This document shows positions 9,601 to 57,727 of a DNA stretch of 64,000 bases, piece by piece. The notes beneath the pieces are model-generated. The model saw nothing but the letters and a program-made list of their open reading frames with translations. It made no database searches and had not been told where the DNA came from. This stretch comes from Macrocystis pyrifera (lineage: Eukaryota; Sar; Phaeophyceae; Laminariales; Laminariaceae). How positions within the stretch are numbered: the first letter of the stretch is position 1; the number at the start of each line of letters is the position of its first letter. The stretch spans positions 10,872,087 to 10,936,086 of the forward strand of contig JASSKH010000024.1 of NCBI GenBank assembly GCA_031763025.1, written 5' to 3'. Both the position numbers and the translations under genes were made by a program.

Positions 9601-9974
9601 TCCCTTGGTTTGAAAAATGCTCCGATGGAGCTGAAAAATTTAGGTTAGGGTAATATTGGGTTGGGGATGACGAATCCGGTATCAGAAAATTCTCAATCGT
9701 TTTTATTTCAAAGTTACATCGATAGATGGTTAATGCATTTTTATTACCGTCGCCAAAAAAATCAGGGTATAGAAAAAATGAAAAAATGAATGTTGCTGAC
9801 GTACGGAAGGATATTCGGTGTATATCGGAATGGCATCTACGCTATATTGACGGCAGACAAGCATAATAATAATAATATTTACAACCGTAGGACGCGTAAA
9901 AAACGCACACAAAATGGCGAAACTACGAACCAACGCTGGTACCCCCCACATCTCTCCCGCTCTGCCCTGTTTTA
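6623..9974. other. Intergenic region, no supported gene
   Basis: This stretch begins with the presumed TM9SF 3' untranslated region. A short duplication at about 6709-6800 repeats CTCTCAGATGTG followed by a CGCACA(A/G)GAGCACA block. A G-homopolymer lies at about 7298-7320. The open frames here are short and overlap on both strands with no family likeness. Around 8805 TACCAGGTA occurs twice in overlap. Nothing else is recognised. Confidence 0.6.
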
Positions 9975-10019
9975 TGTTCGCAGAGTCGAAGTCTGGATGC
10001 CCTGACCACCACGTGGTCT

Positions 10020-10311
10020 TGTTATGGTATCCCCTCTCCCCTGTTGCGGCGTTATGTCCCCTCTCCCCTGTTGTGGCGTTATGGTTTGTAGCAATCGTCC
10101 CCTTATCATACCTGGCACGCGTTGTCGCCTGCTTTTTCTGATGAGCGCTTCGCCCCTTCGTTCAGAAGACATCTGGCGAGGCAAACAGCAACTAGTACAA
10201 GAGCTTATAACATCGTCAAGCACCTTGTGTGAGTGCCCAGAACAGAGCCAAAGGCATCAACCTGCTAGCAGTAGTCGGTCCCTAGGTCCATGTACTGCCT
10301 TACACTTAACA
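10020..10311 (+). repeat. Gypsy-element LTR, left copy (forward)
   Basis: A 292-bp repeat beginning TGTTATGGTATCC and ending CACTTAACA. It matches the reverse complement of 16575-16863 with scattered differences. The bases just inside it are CTGGCGTC, the same as those just inside the other copy. Two internal copies of CCCCTCTCCCCTGTTG lie near its start. Confidence 0.85.
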
Positions 10312-12599
10312 CTGGCGTCGTCGGCAGACTATGACTTCCATTTCTGGGGTAAAGACAAACTTGACGCCTTGTTTCAGAAGGGAAGTGATGGGTCGTATGC
10401 GCTTGGCCATATCGCACCGGAATTTCCTGTAGTAGGAGCGTGCGCCGAAAAGGGAGCGTAGTAGTCTCAGGTCTTTCGGCATGGGCATTTTCGTCAGTGC
10501 TTCCACTTTCTGCGCGTTCGGCATAACGCCGGCTGGAGAGATGGTGTGACCGAGGAAATCCGCATCCGTGCCGCCGATGGTAGCCTTTCAAGGGGACAAC
10601 TTGAGGTTGTGCTATCGAAATCGCAAGAAGAATTCCTTCATGTTGGCGACGTGGAAGGAGGGATCGGCGTCGAAGACGATGACGCCGTCGAGGTAGGCGG
10701 CGACGCGGTCCAAGCCCTTGATGATCTCGTTGATGAATTTGACGAACCACCCAGGAGCAGCGCTGCGTCCTTGAGGCATAACCAGCCACTTGAAAAGACG
10801 CGTGGGTGTACAGAAAGCAGTGAGAGGGGTCGTGTCCTTGTGCACCGTTATCTGAAGAAAAGAGGAGACGAGGTCGAAGAGTGAAAATATTCGACCGGTG
10901 CCAAGCTTGTCGAGAACCTCATCGACGCGCGGGATGGGGAGCTGGCCAAGGATGCTGAATTTGTTCAGCTTCTTGTAGTTCACCGTGATGCGGATGCCAC
11001 CGGAATTCTTCGGGATGACAACCACTGGGCTCGCCCAGGGAGATGTGGAGTGTTGGATGAGGCCGGTGGCGAGGAATTTATCCAGAACCGCGTCCACTTG
11101 CGGTCGGGGGATTGATGCAGTAGGGCCGAGACGTGACAGGAGAGCTGTTCGGGGGAACAGTTATCTTGAAGGGAAGCAGAGAGCATAAGCCAAAATTGGT
11201 TGGAGAGATCGAGAGCACGTCGGAGAATTCAGCGAGAACATCGCCCAACTGGGTGATCACGGTTGGCGTCAAACCGAGACCGCGCAAGTCAAATACGATG
11301 TTGCGCATGTGCGACGGCAAACGGTTCCATACTTGCAGAAAGCTCGTGCGTTGGTCTGTGCTCAATCGTTCGAGCAGCGCAGGTGAAGGGGGGTAGTCGA
11401 CAGGCTTAGCCGAAGAGGCCGCGAATTCTTCGAGTGTCGGGGCTGTCTCGTCGCGTGGATGGTGCACGAAGGGATCCAGGCACTATGGTTGTGAGGGCTG
11501 GTCCGTGCCCATGGAATGGGGGGGGACTGGCCCTGGGACTGAGAAGCCAGAGTCGTGCGAGCTTAAAGAAGGAGCCGGAGCGTCGGACAGGACAGTTTCC
11601 AGGGGTACGCGTAATAGCGGGCTAGAGGAGGTGCCAAGCAAGGCACCTGGGTCTAATCCGCGGCGCCGGCTAATGGGATGAGCTGGCGACCATTTTCCAC
11701 AATTTGTTCTTCCTCAGAAAAATCGGTGGCCGCGTTCAGCATGTTGACCAGGTAGCAACCGGCGAGGGCAGGGGCACCATTTCTGCGGACCAAATCGACA
11801 TCGACATGTCGATGGTCGCGGGACAAGGTGATGCCTGTGTCACCCGCATACAGTAGGTGGAAGCTTTCAGGATGAGCCGAAGAGTCGGGCACAAACGCTA
11901 GTGCGCCCTGCAGTCCTGGGAGGGACAGCGTAAGCTTTCCGAGAACCCGATTAGTCATCGAGCAGGGAGCCAAGGAACGGTAAGAGCGGTCCTGGAACCG
12001 CAACCAGCTGTCGCGTCCGAGTAGCACGTCGTGTTGCATCGCTTCAGATGAGACGACGCGTACTCATACGGCGAGTGATGCAGTTGGTGTATCGCCGTGG
12101 AAGAACTGTACGCTTAAGCGTACTGTAACGGAGGTCTCAAGAGGCGGAGACTTACCAAAGCCGTCCCATGACCGAGGAGGGGTGTGTCGTTCGCAAGTGG
12201 CAGAGGCAGCACTCACGCGTTTCATGCTATCGAACGCGCGGGTGTTAAAGAAGGTCTGCGGCGAGCCCGTATCCAAAAGGGCGACACATCCAAGCTGCAG
12301 AGCAGCTAGGCCGCTGTGGATCTTGATTTTGGTGGTAAAGGAAGAGTCGTCCATGGTTACTAAACCAGCAACAAGACAAGGCCCTTGCTCAGCGAGCAAG
12401 GGGGGCGGACATTACTTCGAGAACATCGCCGCCGTGGTCTGATGGCACGATTGTAGGGGGGTCGGGGTATCCCGGCAGGGAGGCGGCTGCAGGTGTGCCA
12501 CTTGGGCACAGTTGCTGTCGCGTCGAAGGGTCGACTTCGAAGATGCGGTCTCTACTAGAGGGCGAGGTGTCCTGAGGAGACCATGGTTGGGGGCGCGTC

Positions 12600-13090
12600 G
12601 GTGGCGGCACGCGGTCGCGGAAGAGACGTCGCACGGTTTGCAGAGCCTTGCCTAGCAAATTTAAGCCGCGCCACAGGGGTGGCTGGCGTGCAGGAATAGC
12701 GTCAGCCCTGTATCCGATGCCCCATATGAGGTCGTAAGGACTAGCTTCCGCGAGAAGTTTGTCGCCTGTGTCCAAGAGGTGGGTTCGCATGGCGGGGTTT
12801 TGAGCGAACTTGGCGTAAGAGCCGACAAGCACGATATTTCCTCGCTCGCGTTCCCACTCGGCGAGATCGAAGTTACGGACCTCGTCCATATTGCTTGTGC
12901 AGGCGGGGGTCAGACACGCGTATGATGGGTTGTAGGGTCTGATGGTCTCTGAAGAGGCGACTCTTTTCGGCAGCGAAGAACTGTTCGCCGCAGGAATAAG
13001 AGATGCCTTAAACCGTAAAACGGGAAGGCGTCCATTGCGAAAAGCAAGAGGGGGGCTGCCAGAAGAACACGATGTCGCGCGTGCAGTACT
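12600..13090 (-). other. NADAR (YbiA-like, PF08719 type) domain within the gypsy element
   Basis: The minus strand carries hallmark blocks of the NADAR family. In one open frame: FDLAEWERER, YAKFAQNPAMRTHLLDTGDK, LLAEASPYDLIWGIGYRAD and WRGLNLLGKALQTVRRL. Just upstream lie a W-x-PPS-x-FSQW block and an EQFFAAEKSRLF block, which match the N-terminal part of the same family. NADAR enzymes are known to remove ADP-ribose from nucleobase adducts and to act on riboflavin-pathway intermediates. Here the domain is collinear with gag upstream and protease downstream, on the element's coding strand and with no sign of introns. It is treated as a fossil part of the element. Domain recognition is strong; any role in the element is inference. 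Confidence 0.85.
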
Positions 13091-13869
13091 CTTGGGTAGG
13101 ATCAAACGCGGCGGTATTCACCGTCGCGCGAGAAGAAGCGGGGAGTGTGTCAGACACATTCCCGGAAAAGCAGTTGGGGGTCTCTCTCTCGCTGGGAGAC
13201 GGGTCCCAACCTGCTTCCTGCCTTGCCATGCCAGGGCCTCGTTATCGAGGCCGGGGTGGGAGGCGCATTCGCCTGGACCGGTCGTGTTTGCTGTCCCCGA
13301 GACATTTCGGGGAGGGGCAGGGGGCTCCCGACCGGTCCACCTTGACTGGGTGAGCGAAATATCCGCCATGTGGGCGGGGGGCATTTGGAGTGCGTCCACA
13401 GAAAATAGTGTTGTCAGCACGGCCCGGGCGGCTCGCGGGGTCTATTCTCTCAGATCACCTCGTCGTAACTCGTCTGGGTAAGAAGGGGTGCATTTTGGCG
13501 CCAAGGGCGTAGCTGCGTTTAAGCCCTGTGGGGGACATGTGACGCCCTGTCGGGGACACTTGTTCTCCACCAGCTCAGTGGCCTCCGTCGAAACGCCGTG
13601 GCTCAAAGAAGAATCTTCCGCTACGCTCTGGTCAGGATGAAAATCAGAGCTGACTACACTCCGATCGTCTTCGATAATAGTGCGCAGAGGGAGATTCCGA
13701 TAGGTCTTGCTTGAGGACCTCGAGCGGAGCGCCCGTTGTTCTCGAGGGGCCTGTGTTCCTGTACCCGCACCTCAAGACGATCCTCACATCCTGGGAGTCA
13801 CTCCTGGATATGGTGGTTGCCTCAAAAGATGAAGTCGGGGAAGACGCACGCGGAAAATTAGTCGTTTAC

Positions 13870-14335
13870 GCGGGGACCAGGAGTGCCGGGCACTCCTGGT
13901 GTTCGCGGCGGAGAGGCTACGGCGGCAATCATGCAGTCGTCTTCGCCAGGACCAGGAGCGACAAGCATGCCTGGTGCCGGTGGGGAAGAGCCTACGGCAG
14001 CTGGAAGGCGGCCGTTTTCGCGGAGACCAGGGGCGGTACTCATACCTGGTGCCGGCCGTGAACATGTAATACCTACGGTCTCAACCAAAGGACCGTCTTC
14101 GCGGGGACCAGGAGCGGTACGCATACCTGGTGCCGGCGGTGAAGAATATGTAGTATCTACGGTCTCAACCAGGGGACCGTCTTCGCGAGGACCAGGAGCG
14201 GTACGCATACCTGGTGCCGGCGGTGATGAGCATGTCTTACCCACGGTCTCAACCCGAGGACCGTCTTCGCGGAGACCAGGAGCGGTACGCATACCTGGTG
14301 CTGGCAGTGAAGGGGAAACGCTGTCGCCGGGGGGG
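13870..14335 (-). repeat. 84-bp in-frame minisatellite encoding Pro-rich repeats in the gypsy element
   Basis: About five to six tandem units with an 84-bp period: GACCGTCTTCGCG starts at 14091, 14175 and 14259. On the coding (minus) strand the unit is 28 residues with the core APGMRTAPGPREDGPLVETV. The period is a multiple of three, so the reading frame is preserved. It lies in the spacer between the gag zinc knuckle and the NADAR domain. Confidence 0.85.
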
Positions 14336-16574
14336 CGATGGTCAGTGCCTGGGTCAAACGTGCTTCCCGTGAGTGCTATCGGCGGGATGGGAAGTTCAAA
14401 CGTACCGCCGTTGGGCAGTCAATTGGAGCGGAAGGTCCCTGGCTGACGTCCATTGGGGTTGGGGTCAGCAACAGATCCGTAGCGCATACCCGGGGCCTGG
14501 GGGCTGGAGGAAAGCCCCGGGGGAGCGCCGTGCTGGGGTTGGAAAACCGTCAGCGAAGTGGCTAATTGGCCACCACTTTGAGAGCCTCCAGCATTACCTT
14601 GTTGTTGCGCGCCACCGTGACGAAACTGACCAGAGTTGGAGTGCCCGTGGTCGTTACGGCGGTTATTGCCGTAGCGACGAGACGAATTTTTGTTGCGATG
14701 CGACGAAGGCGACGAGCGTGTGTTTTCGCCGCCAACGTGGGTAGGACGGCGATATGAGTGCATGTGGCGCTGCCAACGGCGGTAGGTTTCGCCGTTATCA
14801 CCAAGTCGACCTAGCTCGGGGTTGAGAAAGTGGCTAGAGTTGGTGAAGGGGGCAGCGCACGTCTTAAATGAGTGATCCGTGCCATGGCAGTTGAGACAAT
14901 GGCCCTTGATCTTCCTAAAGACTTGGCGCTTTTCTTCGGGAGTGGTAAAGGGCGTCCATAATTGAATGTCATTGTTGAGAAATATTCGGATACTTGAAAT
15001 ACCTCGTCCCAAGCAGTCGAATTAGCAGGCCATTCGGCCGCGGACGACGAAAATGGATCAGGGAAACGAGCTGATGCTGCGACATTCATCACGATTGGGT
15101 TTCGAGATGACCCCGATGCGCCTTTAAAAGGCTGCGGCGCGGCCGATCGGCCTTGGGTGCGACCGCTTGCATGCGAGCGCAAAGAAAGACCCGCGAGGGG
15201 TGGAAGCGTAAAATGTTTTTCGCTGTTGATGGCGGGAGTCTTACTAGTTGAAAGTCCACTAAACGCCAACCACATGTCGTCGATAGACCCAAAAGGCTTC
15301 GACGCCGTCGCTAAATCTCTCGGGTACAAGACCAGCATGAGACTCGGGGTACTGCTCGCTAACGCTGTTACGAACAACCTCTAGCACAACCTCAACGCCT
15401 GGGGCGAAGACCTGGTCACTGTTCGTAATGGACGCTATCAACAAGCGAAAAGCCCGAGAATAGTCCGCGAAAGGCGTCTTGGTGGCTACCCCAAACGAAT
15501 GGAGCTTGGTCATGGCTGCACTTCGGTCGCCATGGTCGAAGTGGGAGCTGATGAGGCGGAGTAGCAGCTTAAAGGCGTCCGGGCCACTGGTTCCTTTCAT
15601 GAGACTCCGTTTCACCTGCCGAAAAAAATTCGTCGAAGGTGTTAGTGAGGTCAAAGGTCGAAGGTTTGTCGGGTGTGATGGCTCTCTGAACGCATTTGCG
15701 AAGCGGAAGTTCCCACCCGGGAACCCAAGACTGGGAGTCAAGCTCGTCAGAGCATTTCTCGTCACATCGTACTAGTATGTCTGCTGCTGCAAGTTTGACA
15801 CTACGTGTCAACTGGTGTGCTGTGTCGGTTTTGTCGAGAGCTGCGCGAAACGGCATAGGTGTGACACGTTCGATTTTGTGGGCGTCGATGTTGGCGTAAG
15901 CACGCTTTACGGCAGCATTGTGGGCTTCGTCACTCTCTGCTGCGACAGCTTTGACGGTAGCTTGACGTACGTCTGCTGCCGTTGAGGACAACGAGAGCGC
16001 ACGGTCGTCGGTGGCTGGTTCGCTAGGTGACAGTTGGTGGAGACCAGCACCGGAAGAAATATGGAGAAGGGAGGGAACCACTTGCCTGGGGGTTTGCAGC
16101 TGGGCGACGTCCGATTCGGTGTTGTTGGCGTCTGCTGTGGCAGGGGTCGAGCGCTGGCGAGGGCCCTTGCCCAATTTTCGAGACTTAGGTCCCGACGAGG
16201 ACGAAGCGCTACGTGAAGAAGGGCTGCGAGAGGAGGAGGCGCCGCCGCTGCGGTCGCGGCGACCCTTGGGGTCGACGCCGCGCGAACCGCGTTTGCGTGT
16301 CAGGGCGGGGTCGGTGGCGGGGAGAGCACCGTCCGGCCAGGTGGGGGTGCGTATGGCGTGTTGATGCGCCTTACGGGGGGCGAACAGGAGGTCGCAGGCC
16401 GTGTTCATTGTTGCCGTTGGCAACGAAGCGTCAGGGCTCGTTAGCACCATGTTCAGGGTCCCCACTGGGAAGGCGTCCATGAAAGCCAGCAGTGAGCGAC
16501 CCGCGGAGTACACCACCTTCGCGTGCTCTGGGCGGAAGGCGGTTTGCGTGGTTCCTTTGTTTTCTTGACGCCAG

Positions 16575-16863
16575 TGTTAAGTGTAAGACAGTATGGACCT
16601 AGGGACCCACTACTGCTAGCAGGTTGACGCCTTTGGCTCTGTTCTGGTCACTTACACGAGGTGCTTGACGATGTTATAAGCTCTGGTATTAGTTGCTGTT
16701 TGCCTCGCCAGATGTCTTCTGAACGAAGGGGCGAGGCGCTCATCAGAAAAGCAGGCGACAACACCTGCCAGGTATGACGAGGGGACGATTGCTACAAACC
16801 AAAACGCCACAACAGGGGAGAGGGGACATAACGCCGCAGCAGGGGAGAGGGGATACCATAACA
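16575..16863 (-). repeat. Gypsy-element LTR, right copy (inverted)
   Basis: A 289-bp repeat beginning TGTTAAGTGTAAG and ending ACCATAACA on the plus strand. It is the reverse complement of 10020-10311. It abuts the gag end of the element. The minus-strand bases just inside it read CTGGCGTC, the position expected for a primer-binding site. Confidence 0.85.
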
Positions 16864-17029: not shown

Positions 17030-17230
17030 GTCTGATATATTATTTATAGTCGTTGTATTAGAAGACATAGGAGGAGAGATAGAGCGGAGCGTACCTCGTA
17101 GCTCGGAGCGGAGAACGGTGTGCTCGAACTCTCCTCATGAACACACGGCAAAACTTATAATAGCGCCAGCGAAGATACACCCGACCCTCTACAACTTGTA
17201 ACCGTCGCTGCCGGAACGGTCCAAACGAAC
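17030..17230 (-). repeat. Left copia LTR, distal part
   Basis: Continues the LTR begun at 9975-10019. Shared landmarks with 20900-21003 and 24687-24777 are GGAGCGGAGAACGG, GCTCGAACTCTCCTCA, ACACGGCAAAA and CCAAACGAAC. The join to 9975-10019 is separated by the gypsy insertion. Confidence 0.85.
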
Positions 17231-20200
17231 TCCCTCCCTGGCTCTTCACAGCAGTGACGAGACCGAAGAGACTTTCAAGACATGCTAGGACCTAAGAACG
17301 GCCAACGACAGTCCCGCAGGAGGAAACCCGGCCATTGGGTCAAAACCCCCTGTATATAACACATATACTCCAAACCATTGCAATTGAAACAACGGCCGCA
17401 TTCAAAACGATGACCATGGCCAGAAAATAAAATGCCAAGTGGTGCCCTACTCCCCCAAGCGCAGGGTCGGCGACCTGACAAAATATTCCTCGCATCACTC
17501 AAACATGGTACTCATCGAATAATGCTCATGCTCCCTTATTCACCCTCCAAAGGCAGATTCAACAAGAATCTACGGTGAGACTTAAAAGCGGTCGCAGCAA
17601 GGGATTTCGTCAAAATATCCGCGTGTTGCTCTTCCGAAGCTACGAACTGAATGCCTTGTTATCCTCGAAAACCCGAACACATGATCCGCTTAGCTCTGGA
17701 TAAACAAACGACTGCACCGCGCCCGTAAACAAAGCTCCTTCACCCCTTCACCCAGGGCGAGATACTCTGCTTCTGCTGTGGACAACGTGACACACCTCTG
17801 CGTGCTACTTGTACAACTGACGGCCGCACCCCCTCGGGTAATTACCGTCCCCGACACCGAGCGCCTACCGTTCGACTTATCAGCAAAATCAGAATCACTA
17901 TACGCAGTCAAACCCAATCCCGAGCCCCGCACAAAGTCAATCCCACAGACCTGGTCCCGTGGAGGTAAGCCATAATCTTTAAACTACCTTCCAGTGCCTC
18001 TCCGTAGGGTTGTGGGAGTGACACGCCACAGCACGCACAGCGTTCCAGATGTCTGGCCTCGTCATGGTCGACAGCCACATCAAGCTGCCCACAGCTTCCC
18101 TGTATGGCCAGTCTCCTCCAAGTTCGTCCTCCTCTGTTGGGACCTAGTTCCACACCGTGGGTCGCGGGGATGTCAGAGGATGAGTTAACACCAAAATGAT
18201 TCAGCATGCATGCTCTCAATAAACGCCTTATGCGTAATCTCCAATGTCCCCACTTCCCAGTCGCGCTTGAAAGCACAACCAGTGTACAAGTCAGTTCGCC
18301 GAGGTTATTCGTGGGGAATTTCGTAACTAGCGCGGCATAGAAATATCTGCATGTCTCATCCGATCCTGCGATCACGATATCATCTACATGAATGGCTGAG
18401 ATCAGTTCTACCTTGCCGTCCACAACCATGCGAAACACACACGGATCAGACCTACACTGCTCCATACCGTACTCTACTACGGTCTTTACCACTAACCCAG
18501 TCCACTGCCGTCCGCTCTGCGTTAGACCATACAGTGATCCGTTTATTAATAGGCGGACGGTCTTTCCTGACACGTTACCACACCCACCGGGTAGTTTCAT
18601 GTACATCTCGGCGTCGAGTTTCGCGCGAACAAAAGCTTGTGCGACATCTAGATGAAAAATCTTTAAACCATGTTAATTGGCAACAGCCGCCAGAATTTTA
18701 ACTGGCGCTGACGAGGGAGTTGGTGCAAACGTTTGAAAGTAATCTACATCCTGCACCTGGCTAAAACCCTTAGCCACAAGTCTGGCCCTTGTCTTTACTA
18801 TCAGGCCATCCTTGTCCGTCTTGTAGGTAAACACCCACTTCGCACCTACAGGTTTCCGCCCTTGTGGCGGTGTCGCGGCTTCGTACGTACGTTTCGTTTT
18901 GTGACCGTCCGACTCAATTTTCATGGCCTCCTGCCACGCCGCTTTGTACTGAGAACGCTCTACATGTGCTATGGACTGCGGGGGCGGTTCTACGTCTTCT
19001 GCGAAACCACTCGGCATGCACCCGCTCAACTCCCCTCTATTCTTCACAGCAGGTCCTCCGGCCATCAAAGCCACTGCATCCTCCGTCGTTCAGCATGTAC
19101 GATTCAGCATAATCCCAGGCTTCGTCCACCACTCGTACGCTGCCGCAAGCAGCGCGTCTGCGGCTCCATCGTTCATCCGAAGCTGGTACACAGCAGGTGC
19201 ACCCTGCAGGCGTTGGATCTGATGCCGGGTCCGGCCCCGTACTGTCGGGGGGAGCCGTCCCCAGCTGCTGAGCTTGCGTGGCCTACCCGACAGGACCGCG
19301 GGGGGAACCTCACCGTTCCCTTGGCCGGTGTCGGAGGCTGATGCTGCGCCCGGGTCGCTTTTGGCCCTCCCTGCCGGGACCGAGGAGGCGCCCACGGCCC
19401 GCCCTTGAGACGAACCCATCGTCTCGGATGTTTCGTCGCCGGCCTCGCCAGCGGCAGGTGTCTGTTGCGCGCGCTCCTGCATAAACGCGTCCAGGTCAAA
19501 AACCCACGTCACGTCGAGGTCGTTCAAGTGAGCCAGACCGTCGTCCAGCTCGTCCACCACTCCCCAATTACCTCGATCCGACGTGCTCACTTCATCTGCC
19601 TCGGACCCCCCCTTTTCTGTAGAAAGCGAGTCATTCGCCTGGGCAGGTACAGGTGGTGCAGGCGACACGCGTTGCCAGGTGACTTTTCGCGTAATTAAAA
19701 CAGTGCGTTGCCTCGTCAGTACTCATACTGAATCTTGGGGGTAGTTGGGTGCAGGGCTAAGGTGAAAGCACTCTTGTGCTTTCACCTGTGACTTGTTTTC
19801 CCTCTTTACCTTGCAGTAGCCAGGCTTGAGGAAAGGTAGTAGTACTACGGGGGGGGAGCCACCATGCCACATCTCATGCGGCGACTTGCTCTCTGGGTTC
19901 GCTGTCGTTGCTGTGCGGTTCAGGGCGTCACACGCCCAGTGGGACGCTTCCGCCCACAACGATGCAGTGGCCGGGAGTTGCGCGCCAGGAAAAAGCTCTT
20001 GAGTCTGGATTCAGCTTGTCATTGCGGCCGTCTCAACCAAACCTAGCGCGCGCTCAGCTACTCCATTGAATTGGGGACTGTCGGCCGTCGTGAATTCCTG
20101 CTTCATCCCTCGTGATCTACACAGGTCTCCAAACTTGCCCCCGCGGAATTCACCACCCCGATCAAATCGGACGATTACCACCGTAGAAGGGACACCGTCT

Positions 20201-20855
20201 GCACGAGAATCCGCGAGGACCCTGCTCGACCAATTCCCCGGCGTCTGACTTATGGCGCATAAAGTACACCCACGTATACCGTGAAAAATCGTCTCGCACA
20301 ATGAGAGTATACCGCTTCCTCCCGAGAGACTATATCACCTTAGGTCCGCTCAAATCCACAAAAACCCTCCCGAGCTTCTTATGTGCTCGTGTGTGTGTGG
20401 ATTGCTTGATACCTTTTGCGGAGATCCTTAGTCATGGAGCACCCTCTGCACTCCAGCAGCTCTCCTTCGAGGACAATCCCTTGCTGCTCCGCGGTCTTGC
20501 GGAGTAGTAGTCAGGCTCAAGTCAGAGCGTTCGATCTTGTTTCCGTTAAGTGGGACCCTCTACAGCAGTCTGTACGGCTGCCGGGTCGTTGTGGGGAAAA
20601 TGCCTGTGCTGTGTTCGCCCCGGGGCAAACGCCCAACAAGTCTGCGATTAACATCAACGACTTCCACTGCGCGGCTGGACACTCCCTCGAGGACAACCCC
20701 TTGCTGCCTGCCTATGCTCCAACGCCAGCTTGAACTCACGTCACAGCTTTTGAACTTCACTCGAAGAATCGTGCTCCACTTGATCCGATCCCTTCGAAGG
20801 CATCATTCATTGGCTTCTGGTACCAGACAGAGCTCAAACGTTCATGTCACTAGTG

Positions 20856-21003
20856 TGTTCGTAGAGTCCAAGCTTGGATGCCCTGACCACCACGTGGTCT
20901 GATGAGATTCTTTCTAGTCGTTATTAGAGGACAGAGGAGGAGAGAGAGAGCGGAGCGTACCTCTTAGCTCGGAGCGGAGAACGGGGTGCTCGAACTCTCC
21001 TCA
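20856..21003 (-). repeat. Right copia LTR, proximal part
   Basis: Starts TGTTCGTAGAGTCC, includes GGATGCCCTGACCACCACGT (shared with 9975-10019) and runs to CTCCTCA, where the MITE is inserted. The LTR resumes at 24687. Confidence 0.85.
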
Positions 21004-34550: not shown

Positions 34551-34786
34551 CTGTTGACTGTGTTGAGAACGAGGTTGACCAAAATGCAGATGGTTTGTTG
34601 TGTGCTGTTGTTCGTGTCCTTTCCCCCCCCGATCATGAGGGTGTCTTCTTTCGTGCATTTGTCTACATGCGTAGTACTACAAGGGGCTCGGTTGACTATA
34701 ATTGCCGTTGCCCCGACATCGTGATCATTTCGGTTCGTTTCTCGGTTGCTTCGTTTCTTTCGCCCCCCCCACCCCAACATTTTGTA

Positions 34787-37195
34787 AGATTTTGAACGAT
34801 AGAATGGGAGCGATGATGGAGAAGGAAGACAAAATAAGCGAAGGGCAAGCAGGGTTTAGGCTAAACCGTAGCTGCGTAGACCACGTGTACACCTTAGGTA
34901 AGATTATTCAAGGTAGGAAAGACGCGGGACTAAGAACGTACTGTTTCTTTCTAGATGTATGTGCAGAAAGCCTACGCGACACAGTGTGGAGAAATCGATT
35001 GTGGAAAAAACTGTGGGTAATAGGAATGAGAGGAAAGATGTGGAGAATGATGAAAAAGATGACGGAATGTGCGAGAAGTGCTGTGATGCTGGACGGGGAA
35101 ATATCTAAGTATGTTGATATTTGGCAAGGGTTTGCACAGGGATGTACGTCGTCACCTATCCTATTCAATATATATACACATATTAACGACCTGATAGTAG
35201 CAGGCGAGGCAGCAAGGCAGGGAGTTATGGTAGGGGAAGATACGGTGTCGGGATTGATGTTTGCGGATGACTTCGTGGGGATATCAGAAACACCCGAAGG
35301 ATTGCAGAACAAATAGAGAAGGTGTGGAAGCCAGGGTCGGAGATATCGTAGATCTCGTAACACGCACGCGCGAAGGACACGTCACCGGTCACAAGCAATA
35401 TCAAATCTTGGGTCACGAGTGGTCTCACGTCATTGACGGTGTTGACCCGTCCCCGGGAGATAGCGATCGGGAGATTATCCGCCGCAGACTCTGGGGTGAC
35501 AAAAAGTCTCCCCCACCGAGTCAGACTAGCTCTAGCATCTCCTTGCTAAATATCAACGAAGAACTCTGCCCGGCTTACGTCGGCCGTAACGACGGCTACA
35601 ATGGACCCTCGCCACGCGACGTCACCACGGCGACCTCTCCGCGACTTCGACACTGCGACGTCTCCCGCGACTACATCGGTACGAACGACGAGCACAGGAA
35701 CTACATTATGACGTGAGACCGCTCGTGACCCGAGATTTGATACTGCTTGACCGGTGACGTGTCCTTCGCGCGTGCGTGTTACGAGATCTACGATATCTCC
35801 GACCCTGGCTTCCACAAAGGCGATATTAAAGAGAATACACTAGGAAATGGAGGGTGACGGCGAACGTCAAGAAATGCGCAGTAGTTGTTTGTAACGAAGA
35901 TAAGGTAAACCCGGTAAATTTCAGTTGGAAGTGGGGAGAAGATGAGTTGCCGATCGTAGACCAGTATACATACCTTGGCGTAGAGATCTCTGAAGACTGC
36001 TCTTGGGATGCACATATAGCAAAAGTAAAAGGAAAGGGTAAAGCACACGTAGGCAAGATGGATGCGATCCTAACAGACTCGCACCTTGACACTAGGATTA
36101 AGAGATGTATCTTGATGAATGTGATAGTACCAAAGCTAGAATATGCAGGAGGAAGAATGGGAAGGGCACGCGAAACTGGTAACACAGTTGGAAACAGTAC
36201 TAATGACAGCAGCTAAAAAATCCCAAGATGCTCAAGTACGACTAGTAATACAGTATTAAGAGCAGAACTGGGAATGCGCCCACTCAAGACAGATACTTGT
36301 AGAGACATGAGAAAGCTGAAATGGCAATATAAAGTAAGGAACATGCCAAAAAAGAGGTTGGCAGCCATAGTTGGTAGAGCTGTATGGGAGAAAAAGTAAC
36401 AAGAGGGCGAGCTGGAATAAGGTGGGATGGCGTAGATGAGAAAGTATGGAAGGATATAGGGGGAAACCAAGAAGAGATGATGTCCGCCGGGATTTTAGGG
36501 AGGTACAAGGCAGAAGTAGAAGAAAGGGTAGAAAGAAGGGAAAGGCTGGCCCTAAAGAACAAGGTGGAATCGGAAAAACACTTTAGCGATATACGGGGGA
36601 TTGAGGGAAGGAATAGGAATGAAAAGTATTTGCACGGCCCAATGGACTTTGCGAAAACGCTGAAACCGCGCTTTCGTGTAGGTGACCTGGACCTGCCAGA
36701 AAGAAGAAAAGAGTTTTACCAGTAGCCAGGAGGAGGAGGAAGTAGATGCACGAATGTGCCCGTGTGGCAAAACAATAGAGAGTAGAACTCACATGGTAGT
36801 AGAATGGGAATTATACAAGGAGGAACGGGATGTGTTAGAAGAGGAGATGAGGGAAATAGACGAATGTGACATGGGGGAGTTTGATACACTGAATAGCAGC
36901 GAGAAAACGATCGCTATCCTAGGAGATAGATGGTGGCCACAGGCGGCCAGACAGGAAGGGGACAAGACTAGCGAAACTTTCTACCAGGTATGTAATATAT
37001 GGAAACAACGTAATGAGCGCCCAATTGTTGGAGGTGCAGGAACGGTGCTCCGTCTCGAAAGGGATGCGTGGGCAATGGTCAAATGACTAAGGCAAGCAAC
37101 AGAAGAGTACGCCCCCCCCCCCGATGAAGATGGTCTCCCATGCATGCATTTGCATTGATTTGAGAATGTCTTTTGCCGGTACGAATTCCCAATAT
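34787..37195 (+). mobile_element. LINE (non-LTR retrotransposon), 5'-truncated, interrupted by a MITE
   Basis: Translated plus-strand frames show a non-LTR reverse transcriptase: ILNDRMGAMMEKEDKISEGQ, AGFRLNRSCVDHVYTLG, YCFFLD, QGCTSSPILFNIY and the catalytic GLMFADDFVGISET. The region after the MITE at 35323-35816 continues the thumb (TANVKKCAVVVCNE, YTYLGVEISED). It then runs to a C-terminal domain with a CPCGKTIESRTH zinc-binding-like motif. The upstream endonuclease and 5' part are absent, as expected for 5' truncation. At least three further frame changes follow the MITE (about 36215, 36390 and 36725), so it is dead. The clade (I, Jockey or L1 group) cannot be fixed by eye. Confidence 0.9.
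35323..35816. mobile_element. MITE with about 105-bp terminal inverted repeats, inside the LINE
   Basis: The left end is TGTGGAAGCCAGGGTCGGAG and the right end is its reverse complement. The inverted repeats extend about 105 bp with few differences, including GATATCGTAGATCTCGTAAC. AAGG flanks both sides (35319-35322 and 35817-35820). It is 494 bp with a non-coding interior. It separates the LINE reverse transcriptase palm from its thumb, so it came in after the LINE. Confidence 0.9.
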
Positions 37196-56830: not shown

Positions 56831-57162
56831 CAAGCTGGATGTGATACTTTGAGCGCGCGTGCATTCCTGTGTCAGCATCATAAGAACATCGAGGTACTGC
56901 TATGGTACTGCTTGTTACTGAACATTTCATAATCTGCTTTTCACGACGACCGCACGATAATCATATATTTCAATTGAATTACGCTGCCTAAAATAAGCTG
57001 GATGTGATACTTTGAGCGCACATGCATTCCTGTATCAGCATCATAAGAACATCGAGGTGCTGCTACGATACTGCTTGTTACTGAACATTTCACCTCCGGT
57101 TTTTCACGACGACCGCACGATAATCATATACGTATTTCAATTGAATTACGCTGCCTAATATT
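56831..57162 (+). repeat. 164-bp tandem duplication just upstream of bL34m exon
   Basis: AAGCTGGATGTGATACTTTG starts at 56831 and again at 56995. Both units end ATTGAATTACGCTGCCTAA. The units are highly similar, so the duplication is fairly recent. It lies in the presumed intron or promoter of bL34m. Confidence 0.9.
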
Positions 57163-57221
57163 CTGCCTCACCAAACAATTCCTACCTCCGCATCGAATCC
57201 CGTTCTCCGCTGGCTTTTCAG

Positions 57222-57727
57222 GATCGTTGGGTGCTGGCACTCAGCTTTTTAAGCTCGTGGAAACGGACCTCATGTCCAAGGAACTTACCCGTTATGGGCC
57301 TTCCGACGCGGAGCACCTTGGGCTGTTCTCGATCCAGGACGTGCTCTTGGAAATCACAGCCGCAAAATCCGCGCTCGAGCCCGCTGCGCCCGTAGCAGAG
57401 GCGACTCCAGCTCTCTCTCCAGCCGAGACGTCGCAGGAGTCGGAGTTGGTGTCGGCAGCACCAGCGGCGAGAAAGGAGGAAGTGCTGGCTGCGTGGGGCT
57501 TGGGGCCGCGGGTGACGAATGCCGCTGAAGGCGGAGAGCTAGGCGAAGGGCTACAGGAGCCCGCGGAGGAGGCGGGGGCGGAGAAGATGGCCATCAAGCG
57601 TACATACCAGCCCAGCACACTGAAGAGAAAGAGGAAGCACGGCTTTTTGTACCGCGCCAAGACACGTTTGGGTAAAAAGATCCTCCAGAGGCGACAGGAG
57701 AAGGGACGCTGGAGGCTAGGCATCTGA
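57222..57727 (+). CDS. MRPL34: Mitochondrial large-subunit ribosomal protein bL34, last exon
   Basis: The C-terminal 43 residues are a complete bL34 protein: [43 protein letters not shown], then TGA at 57725-57727. bL34 is a small basic protein of the bacterial-type large ribosomal subunit. It is preceded in frame by about 125 residues that are acidic and Ala/Glu-rich ([20 protein letters not shown]), a long extension probably belonging to a mitochondrial precursor. The exon is preceded by a good acceptor (TTTTCAG at 57215-57221) and enters in phase 1. The start codon must therefore be in an upstream exon that was not fixed. An internal ATG at 57272 is a less likely start. The mitochondrial assignment rather than plastid is inferred from the nuclear, spliced setting. 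Confidence 0.85.

Follow-up and report, generated by a model that had tools for sequence, protein, structure and literature searches.

A YbiA-type NADAR domain between gag and protease in a Ty3/gypsy lineage of the kelp Macrocystis pyrifera

The window is a 64,000-nucleotide stretch of the Macrocystis pyrifera genome (assembly GCA_031763025.1, contig JASSKH010000024.1, forward-strand positions 10,872,087 to 10,936,086) with a GC content of 50.3%. It contains the remains of a Ty3/gypsy-like retroelement with a NADAR domain (Table 1). A preliminary description had noticed four NADAR blocks on the coding strand of this element. All four (KFAQNP, LLDTGDK, EASPYDLIWGIG and NLLGKAL) are present on the minus strand within the open frame 12389-13117, which encodes the C-terminal half of the domain. 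In a Pfam search of the translated window, this frame matches PF08719 (NADAR) with an E-value of 1.9e-27 and 97 bits, far over the cut-off of 35.1. The N-terminal half (FFWQPP..GEQFFAAEK) lies in a different frame. It is split into the pieces 13011-13241 and 12876-13007 with a stop between them, and both are matched by the NADAR profile (E about 3e-16 and 5e-16). This means, the domain is interrupted by one stop at 13008-13010 and one frameshift near 12880-12890. The window copy is dead, and NADAR protein cannot be made from it. A six-frame profile scan of the whole window found no second NADAR; the weak match at 11656-12063 (minus strand, E 3e-6) in that scan is due to the protease tail included in the profile.

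Table 1. Features of the NADAR-bearing element in the window
Feature	Position	Strand	Basis
LTR copy, inverted, fused to the broken RT end	10020..10310	+	94% identity with the second LTR, which lies on the opposite strand
RT C-terminal/connection stretch, ended by the inverted LTR	10306..10587	-	inspection only; no Pfam match over cut-off
Reverse transcriptase (RT) core	10612..11160	-	Pfam RVT_1, E 1.4e-15
Region past the protease motif, VLLGRDSWLRF, kept between copies	11653..12063	-	frame and copy comparison
Aspartic protease, first part, LLDTGSPQTF (DTGS at about 12262-12273)	12064..12411	-	motif; homologous frame after NADAR in 20/20 sampled genome copies
NADAR domain, YbiA type	12612..13106	-	Pfam PF08719 for the C-terminal part, NADAR profile for the N-terminal part, translations
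Tandem units (5-6, each about 75-84 bp; repeat families D1 and D2), proline-rich linker between gag and NADAR	13863..14313	-	
End of gag with zinc knuckle CX2CX4HX4C (about 14857-14898)	14419..15021	-	motif in translation
gag, two overlapping frame pieces (15259-15771 and 15569-16576)	15259..16576	-	frames and homology to genome copies; no Pfam match
5' LTR of the window copy, begins TG, orientation of the coding strand	16576..16863	-	

The gag zinc knuckle upstream of NADAR and the DTGS protease and reverse transcriptase downstream of it were likewise found where the preliminary description had placed them. The protease is assigned by motif and homology because Pfam protease matches on relatives stay below the cut-offs. 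Within the RT/RNase H region the element ends abruptly at an LTR of the wrong orientation. Its LTRs are inverted instead of direct, and its domain order ends after RT. Outward of the right-hand LTR lies a sequence which, read by eye, precedes the 3' LTR in the relative L035. Together with the inverted LTRs this indicates that pieces of at least two copies are fused in the window. A complete pair of ends is found in a relative of the window subfamily (L034/L035). There, an LTR about 290 bp long, which shares 92-93% identity with that of the window, occurs twice in direct orientation. This copy has the direct LTRs (TG..CA) and the target duplication (apparently 4 bp, CAAG) by which Ty3/gypsy elements are recognised. 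Since its two LTRs show 99.3% identity across 287 aligned bases and are flanked by the apparent duplication, the NADAR-element lineage has moved recently. Since they are direct, the window locus is a rearranged remnant and not an inverted-end element. For the same reason an inverted-end type such as DIRS, raised by the inverted repeats of the window, was rejected; in addition, for all seven NADAR copies beyond the window with a listed LTR no more than 10 kb away, LTR and NADAR share one strand. The window thus holds a decayed, rearranged Ty3/gypsy copy, and its lineage has a YbiA-type NADAR fixed in the polyprotein between gag zinc knuckle and protease.

The window carries further repeats and a probable host gene. 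A Ty1/copia-like element at about 17056-21003 on the minus strand (RVT_2 at 17908-18672, E 7.1e-18) is bounded by direct repeats at 17056-17137 and 20922-21003, which are 94% identical. An 84-bp direct repeat that ends in ACCACGTGGTCT is present at 9936-10019, just outside the left LTR, and at 20817-20900, just before the copia-like repeat; its copies are 74% identical. A second reverse transcriptase fragment was detected at 34702-35316 on the plus strand (RVT_1, E 3.7e-13). The plus-strand frame 57047-57727 ends in a match to ribosomal protein L34 (E 7.1e-19) and is probably an organelle-targeted host gene.

The searched genome comprises 537,376,219 bases in 223 contigs, of which the largest encountered has 26.5 Mb. 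At least 150 NADAR copies are over the cut-off in the profile search (150 of 150 scored), and there are at least 1264 first-look candidates. The same family search gives matches in three of 14 control genomes. Among the 40 scored of 236 DNA matches to the window NADAR, 39 are further matches over all or nearly all its length at 93-95% identity. For the window LTR, 1704 candidates were obtained, of which 40 were scored. To compare insertions, 20 ten-kb stretches were sampled, roughly every eighth of the 150 best-scoring NADAR copies. The question raised in the preliminary description, whether independent insertions carry the domain at the same place, can be answered in the affirmative: In all 20 loci the same element protease follows NADAR on the same strand. 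This supports the earlier proposal that a retroelement lineage recruited the domain. By our count by eye, NADAR (in L026 only its C-terminal part) and protease share one open frame in 14 of the 20 loci. RT matching that of the window is found in ten, and gag-homologous frames precede NADAR in many, not all, genome copies. Pfam searches of long frames recovered NADAR in L028, L023, L004 and L032. In L028, the frame after NADAR contains RVT_1, RNase H and the H2C2 integrase domain, and RVT_1-RNase H was found in L023 and L017. The Ty3/gypsy order protease - RT - RNase H - integrase is therefore present in relatives (L028; partly L023 and L017), with the protease recognised by motif and homology only. 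Many copies contain stops or frameshifts. No LTR pairs, and hence no insertion ages, were obtained within the 20 ten-kb loci, which belong to subfamilies A and B (see below).

A search of protein databases with the element protease yielded 131 matches. Among the 120 listed, NADAR lies upstream of the protease in 56, and 64 begin too close to it for a decision; in none is there an open upstream frame of at least 200 aa without NADAR; as the query was cut from a NADAR-bearing protein, distant NADAR-less relatives may be missed. Within the reach of this search, NADAR is a standing part of this gypsy lineage. Bacterial or viral contamination was rejected, as the window lies inside a 12-Mb contig of the 537-Mb genome. 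Viral contamination is also disfavoured by IMG/VR, whose NADARs are at most 50% identical to the domain of the window relative L012 among the 80 listed of 523 loci.

The kelp elements fall into three subfamilies: W (window type), A (P0023-like) and B (P0079-like). For NADAR, identities amount to 0.56 (W-A), 0.49 (A-B) and 0.44 (W-B), for the protease to 0.61, 0.54 and 0.53, and for RT, where W is represented by the decayed window copy alone, to 0.71, 0.79 and 0.74. By these values, A is closest to B in RT, and W is closest to A in NADAR and protease. The W copies L011 and L012/L034 lack most of the gag stretch of the window between LTR and NADAR (L034 2504-2792 to 3963). Subfamily B supplies 12 of the 20 sampled loci. 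Ten of them (L016, L021, L024-L027, L029-L031 and L033) lack one common stretch, about 6471-7645 of L028, which corresponds to a deletion of ~1.17 kb. The ends of the deletion agree within about a dozen bases, and the flanks align at 85-98%. According to the Pfam positions in L028, RVT_1 is lost entirely and RNase H almost entirely; NADAR and protease are kept. One breakpoint common to ten insertions means that the RT-deleted form itself multiplied and retained NADAR and protease. It is an amplified non-autonomous derivative.

Selective constraint was estimated from copies drawn from the 150 best NADAR scores, a sample biased toward intact, conserved domains, and copies with interrupted domains were omitted. 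Within subfamily A, pN/pS is 0.51 for NADAR (12 of 15 copies), 0.35 for the protease (7 of 15) and 0.42 for RT (6 of 15). Within W, it is 0.33 for NADAR (4 of 4) and 0.29 for the protease (2 of 4). In the RT-less B copies, values of 0.80 for NADAR and 0.66 for the protease were obtained (8 of 10 each); with pN/pS of 0.74-0.80, subfamily B is under weak constraint. In all three subfamilies the protease is constrained slightly more strongly than NADAR. Comparisons between subfamilies give a pN/pS of 0.43-0.55, synonymous sites being close to saturation. In the copies examined, the constraint on NADAR resembles that on protease and RT.

The AlphaFold model of the L012 domain has a pLDDT of 95.4. 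Foldseek places it with the YbiA fold: The best PDB matches are 8bau (TM 0.83, 29% identity) and E. coli YbiA, 2b3w (TM 0.72, 26%), and no further PDB match has an E under 1. 8bau is a Phytophthora nicotianae NADAR with bound ADP-ribose, whose residue roles were taken from PMC11543638. In an alignment of 45 full-length rows, of which 30 are kelp copies and many of these near-identical, nine of the 11 ADP-ribose-site residues named for 8bau are kept in 37-45 rows: E43 (43), K50 (44), K75 (44), R79 (41), W89 (44), R93 (37), E125 (45), D130 (43) and W133 (44). The other two differ. Y84 is replaced by F in 44 of 45 rows, and D86 is not retained. According to PMC11125620 and PMC11543638, the last strand of YbiA-subfamily domains carries Glu instead of Asp or His. 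The element domains follow this rule with E125 and with the first-helix E..K pair, E43 and K50. As judged by predicted fold and conserved residues, the NADAR of intact copies most likely has both the fold and the activity of an ADP-ribosyl N-glycosidase, and we regard its catalytic competence as probable.

The origin of the domain was approached with two trees. The quick tree contains 104 of 121 rows, after rows covering fewer than 80 model positions had been dropped. The careful tree is built from 88 chosen rows: 78 of 237 proteins, nine genome copies and the C-terminal half of the window NADAR. In it, 18 database rows are labelled as elements. A protease in the same protein is present in P0006, P0007, P0014, P0023, P0079 and P0155 only, and the remaining labels are by resemblance; P0134 and P0153, labelled without firm ground, were put with the algal set in the AU tests. 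The W and A NADARs form a group (95/92) with the stand-alone zinc-finger type known from Ectocarpus, Scytosiphon and Pylaiella, and with a few others. B, P0079 and P0155 (98/88) are placed among bacterial-type rows in a group supported 81/74, and a starred branch separates B from W and A. The preliminary description had proposed to compare the element NADARs with host genes in a tree. This comparison joins W and A to brown-algal stand-alone genes and leaves B among bacterial-type rows; the kelp gene itself, which is not among the tree rows, was compared by exon.

Stand-alone brown-algal NADARs are present in the database for Ectocarpus, Scytosiphon, Pylaiella and Hapterophycus, the last of which was left out of the tree. 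A genome search with the Scytosiphon gene gave 1351 candidates; among the 150 listed the best identity is 54%, and those recognised by position are element copies. Only with the N-terminal part of the Scytosiphon gene as query was the kelp's own zinc-finger-type gene recovered (exon matches L120 1468-1821 and L122 2949-2602 and 942-769, all minus strand). It is split into at least three exon matches, presumably by introns. Compared by exon with one copy of each subfamily, it is 50-61% identical to W, 52-67% to A and 32-52% to B, in agreement with the grouping in the tree; tblastn gave 40-55% with middle-exon alignments that overran the exon end. A single insertion near-identical to a host gene, which the preliminary description had named as a sign of chance capture, is thus not what the genome holds: There are many copies, and the host gene is both diverged and split. 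A recent chance capture was rejected on this basis. NADAR was captured long ago. Because the W and A NADARs group with brown-algal stand-alone zinc-finger genes, these two more likely derive from a stramenopile host gene, or from one closely related to it, with moderate to good tree support. One- and two-origin readings are both compatible with the data, and the second, at which the tree hints, is possibly correct. The AU test does not reject a single clade comprising every element NADAR (p 0.134).

For the elements of Ectocarpus, Dinatale et al. proposed a direct capture from bacteria by horizontal transfer, and this might have happened more than once. The position of B with P0079 and P0155 among bacterial-type NADARs and the starred branch speak for it, although the 81/74 support for the place of B itself is weak. 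In addition, P0079 stands apart from the other element rows in the quick tree, too, and the blastp searches described in PMC12477816 returned almost only bacterial matches. Against it stands the cluster of W and A with brown-algal genes, and the AU test rejects neither one element clade nor B inside the algal set (p 0.358). We consider bacterial capture rather unlikely. Tree and exon identities weaken, without overturning, this proposal, which rested on blastp matches.

What the element gains from the domain can be approached from the known activities of its relatives. The NADARs tested, which belong to several subtypes, take ADP-ribose off guanine in DNA according to PMC11125620 and PMC11543638, and removal from guanine in RNA is described in PMC11833690. 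Translated beside nucleocapsid and protease, the element NADAR would be packaged with the polyprotein into the virus-like particle, where it might be released by the protease or stay beside it. There, it could remove ADP-ribose attached to guanines, either in the element's RNA or in single-stranded cDNA as this is being synthesised. Reverse transcription would thereby be unblocked despite ADP-ribosyltransferases of the host or of toxins. Our preferred explanation comprises a decayed copy of a NADAR-gypsy lineage, an ancient capture and an active domain that protects the element's own RNA or cDNA in the particle; taken as a whole, it falls slightly short of even probability. Guanine-linked ADP-ribose as the substrate is somewhat favoured, while the idea that the domain serves to protect the nucleic acid of the element itself is put forward tentatively. 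Several observations count against this explanation: The window copy is unable to make the protein, D86 is lost and Y84 is replaced by F, and constraint is weak in B. Furthermore, E. coli YbiA is active on guanine-ADP-ribose in vitro and, as reported in PMC11125620, fails to protect cells against DarT1 or YarT.

Alternatively, the domain might act on small molecules, either soluble ADP-ribose derivatives or reactive intermediates of the riboflavin pathway, and so clean the particle or blunt an ADP-ribose alarm signal and not serve nucleic acid at all. The role described for bacterial and plant NADARs is indeed that of an N-glycosidase on riboflavin intermediates, soluble ADP-ribose derivatives have been proposed as targets of viral NADARs, and YbiA-type domains are without the extensions of other NADARs (PMC11125620). 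However, the position in the polyprotein beside nucleocapsid and protease suggests a particle-associated role. NADARs of RNA viruses are also found in polyproteins, and a macromolecular target has been argued for these. A small-molecule substrate is unlikely in our view. A third idea is that catalysis is irrelevant and the domain holds ADP-ribose or RNA or helps to fold the polyprotein as a spacer. The changes at D86 and Y84 and the weak constraint in B would fit. But the two glutamates and the lysine of the catalytic site are retained in 43-45 of 45 rows, and this between subfamilies with differences at more than 40% of positions. We regard a pure binding or spacer function as quite improbable. 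That the domain was captured by chance and has persisted as a functionless passenger, as the broken window copy and the stops and frameshifts of many others might suggest, is very improbable given the absence of NADAR-less proteins among the informative protease relatives listed, a constraint within subfamilies comparable with that on protease and RT, the pN/pS of 0.43-0.55 between subfamilies, and the conserved active site.

A farther-reaching version of the preferred protective function can be built on the B copies. In one gypsy lineage, NADAR would have entered the slot between gag and protease on two occasions, or would have been swapped there, with a brown-algal type in W and A and a type nearer to bacteria in B. 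As the RT-less B form keeps NADAR and protease, NADAR activity at the particle would then have been selected repeatedly, without dependence on the RT of the element itself, and would protect against ADP-ribosylation of nucleic acids. This is a speculative proposal, to which we assign a low probability.

The NADAR-gypsy fusion itself is already known: Dinatale et al. (2025; PMC12477816) describe it for one Ectocarpus Gypsy lineage, e.g. Gypsy-12_Ec32, and the kelp elements are further members. Among the listed results of a literature search, no other paper treating a NADAR-retroelement fusion was recognised. Compared with the Ectocarpus report, the present analysis adds the kelp members with their three subfamilies, active-site and constraint data, the comparison with a host gene, an RT-deleted subfamily that keeps NADAR-protease, and a tree that hints at brown-algal ancestry; we do not claim that the RT-less form is unreported. 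A recently described, unexplained domain fusion is thus extended from Ectocarpus to kelp. The kelp family numbers well above a hundred copies, and in those examined the active site is preserved and the domain is under constraint. Why a retrotransposon needs an ADP-ribose hydrolase is a question that can be tested on a small purified domain. If NADAR does clear ADP-ribose from element RNA or cDNA, nucleic-acid ADP-ribosylation would be a pressure on algal retroelements.

Among the closest known systems is the NADAR Gypsy lineage of Ectocarpus. It belongs to another alga and is likened to the kelp elements by its published description. Near relatives of the W and A domains in the tree are the zinc-finger NADAR genes of Ectocarpus (P0034), Scytosiphon (P0122) and Pylaiella (P0031). 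These stand-alone genes show by inspection a zinc-finger-like stretch before NADAR; for P0034, Pfam gives NADAR alone. The P. nicotianae NADAR and E. coli YbiA share the fold of the element domains, and the former also their catalytic glutamates and lysine, whereas both are stand-alone proteins of limited identity (see above), and the element NADARs have lost D86 and carry F for Y84. A second retroelement with a YbiA-family NADAR is the Tx1 LINE of Crassostrea gigas, which according to PMC12477816 carries the domain in ORF1; in contrast to the LTR element of kelp, it is a non-LTR element with a divergent domain. DarT1-NADAR toxin-antitoxin systems and phage NADARs belong to the same superfamily and are described to remove ADP-ribose from guanine (PMC11543638, PMC11125620, PMC11833690). 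Unlike the kelp domains, however, they are not fused to a polyprotein, and their catalytic residue in the last strand is Asp or His, where the elements have Glu.
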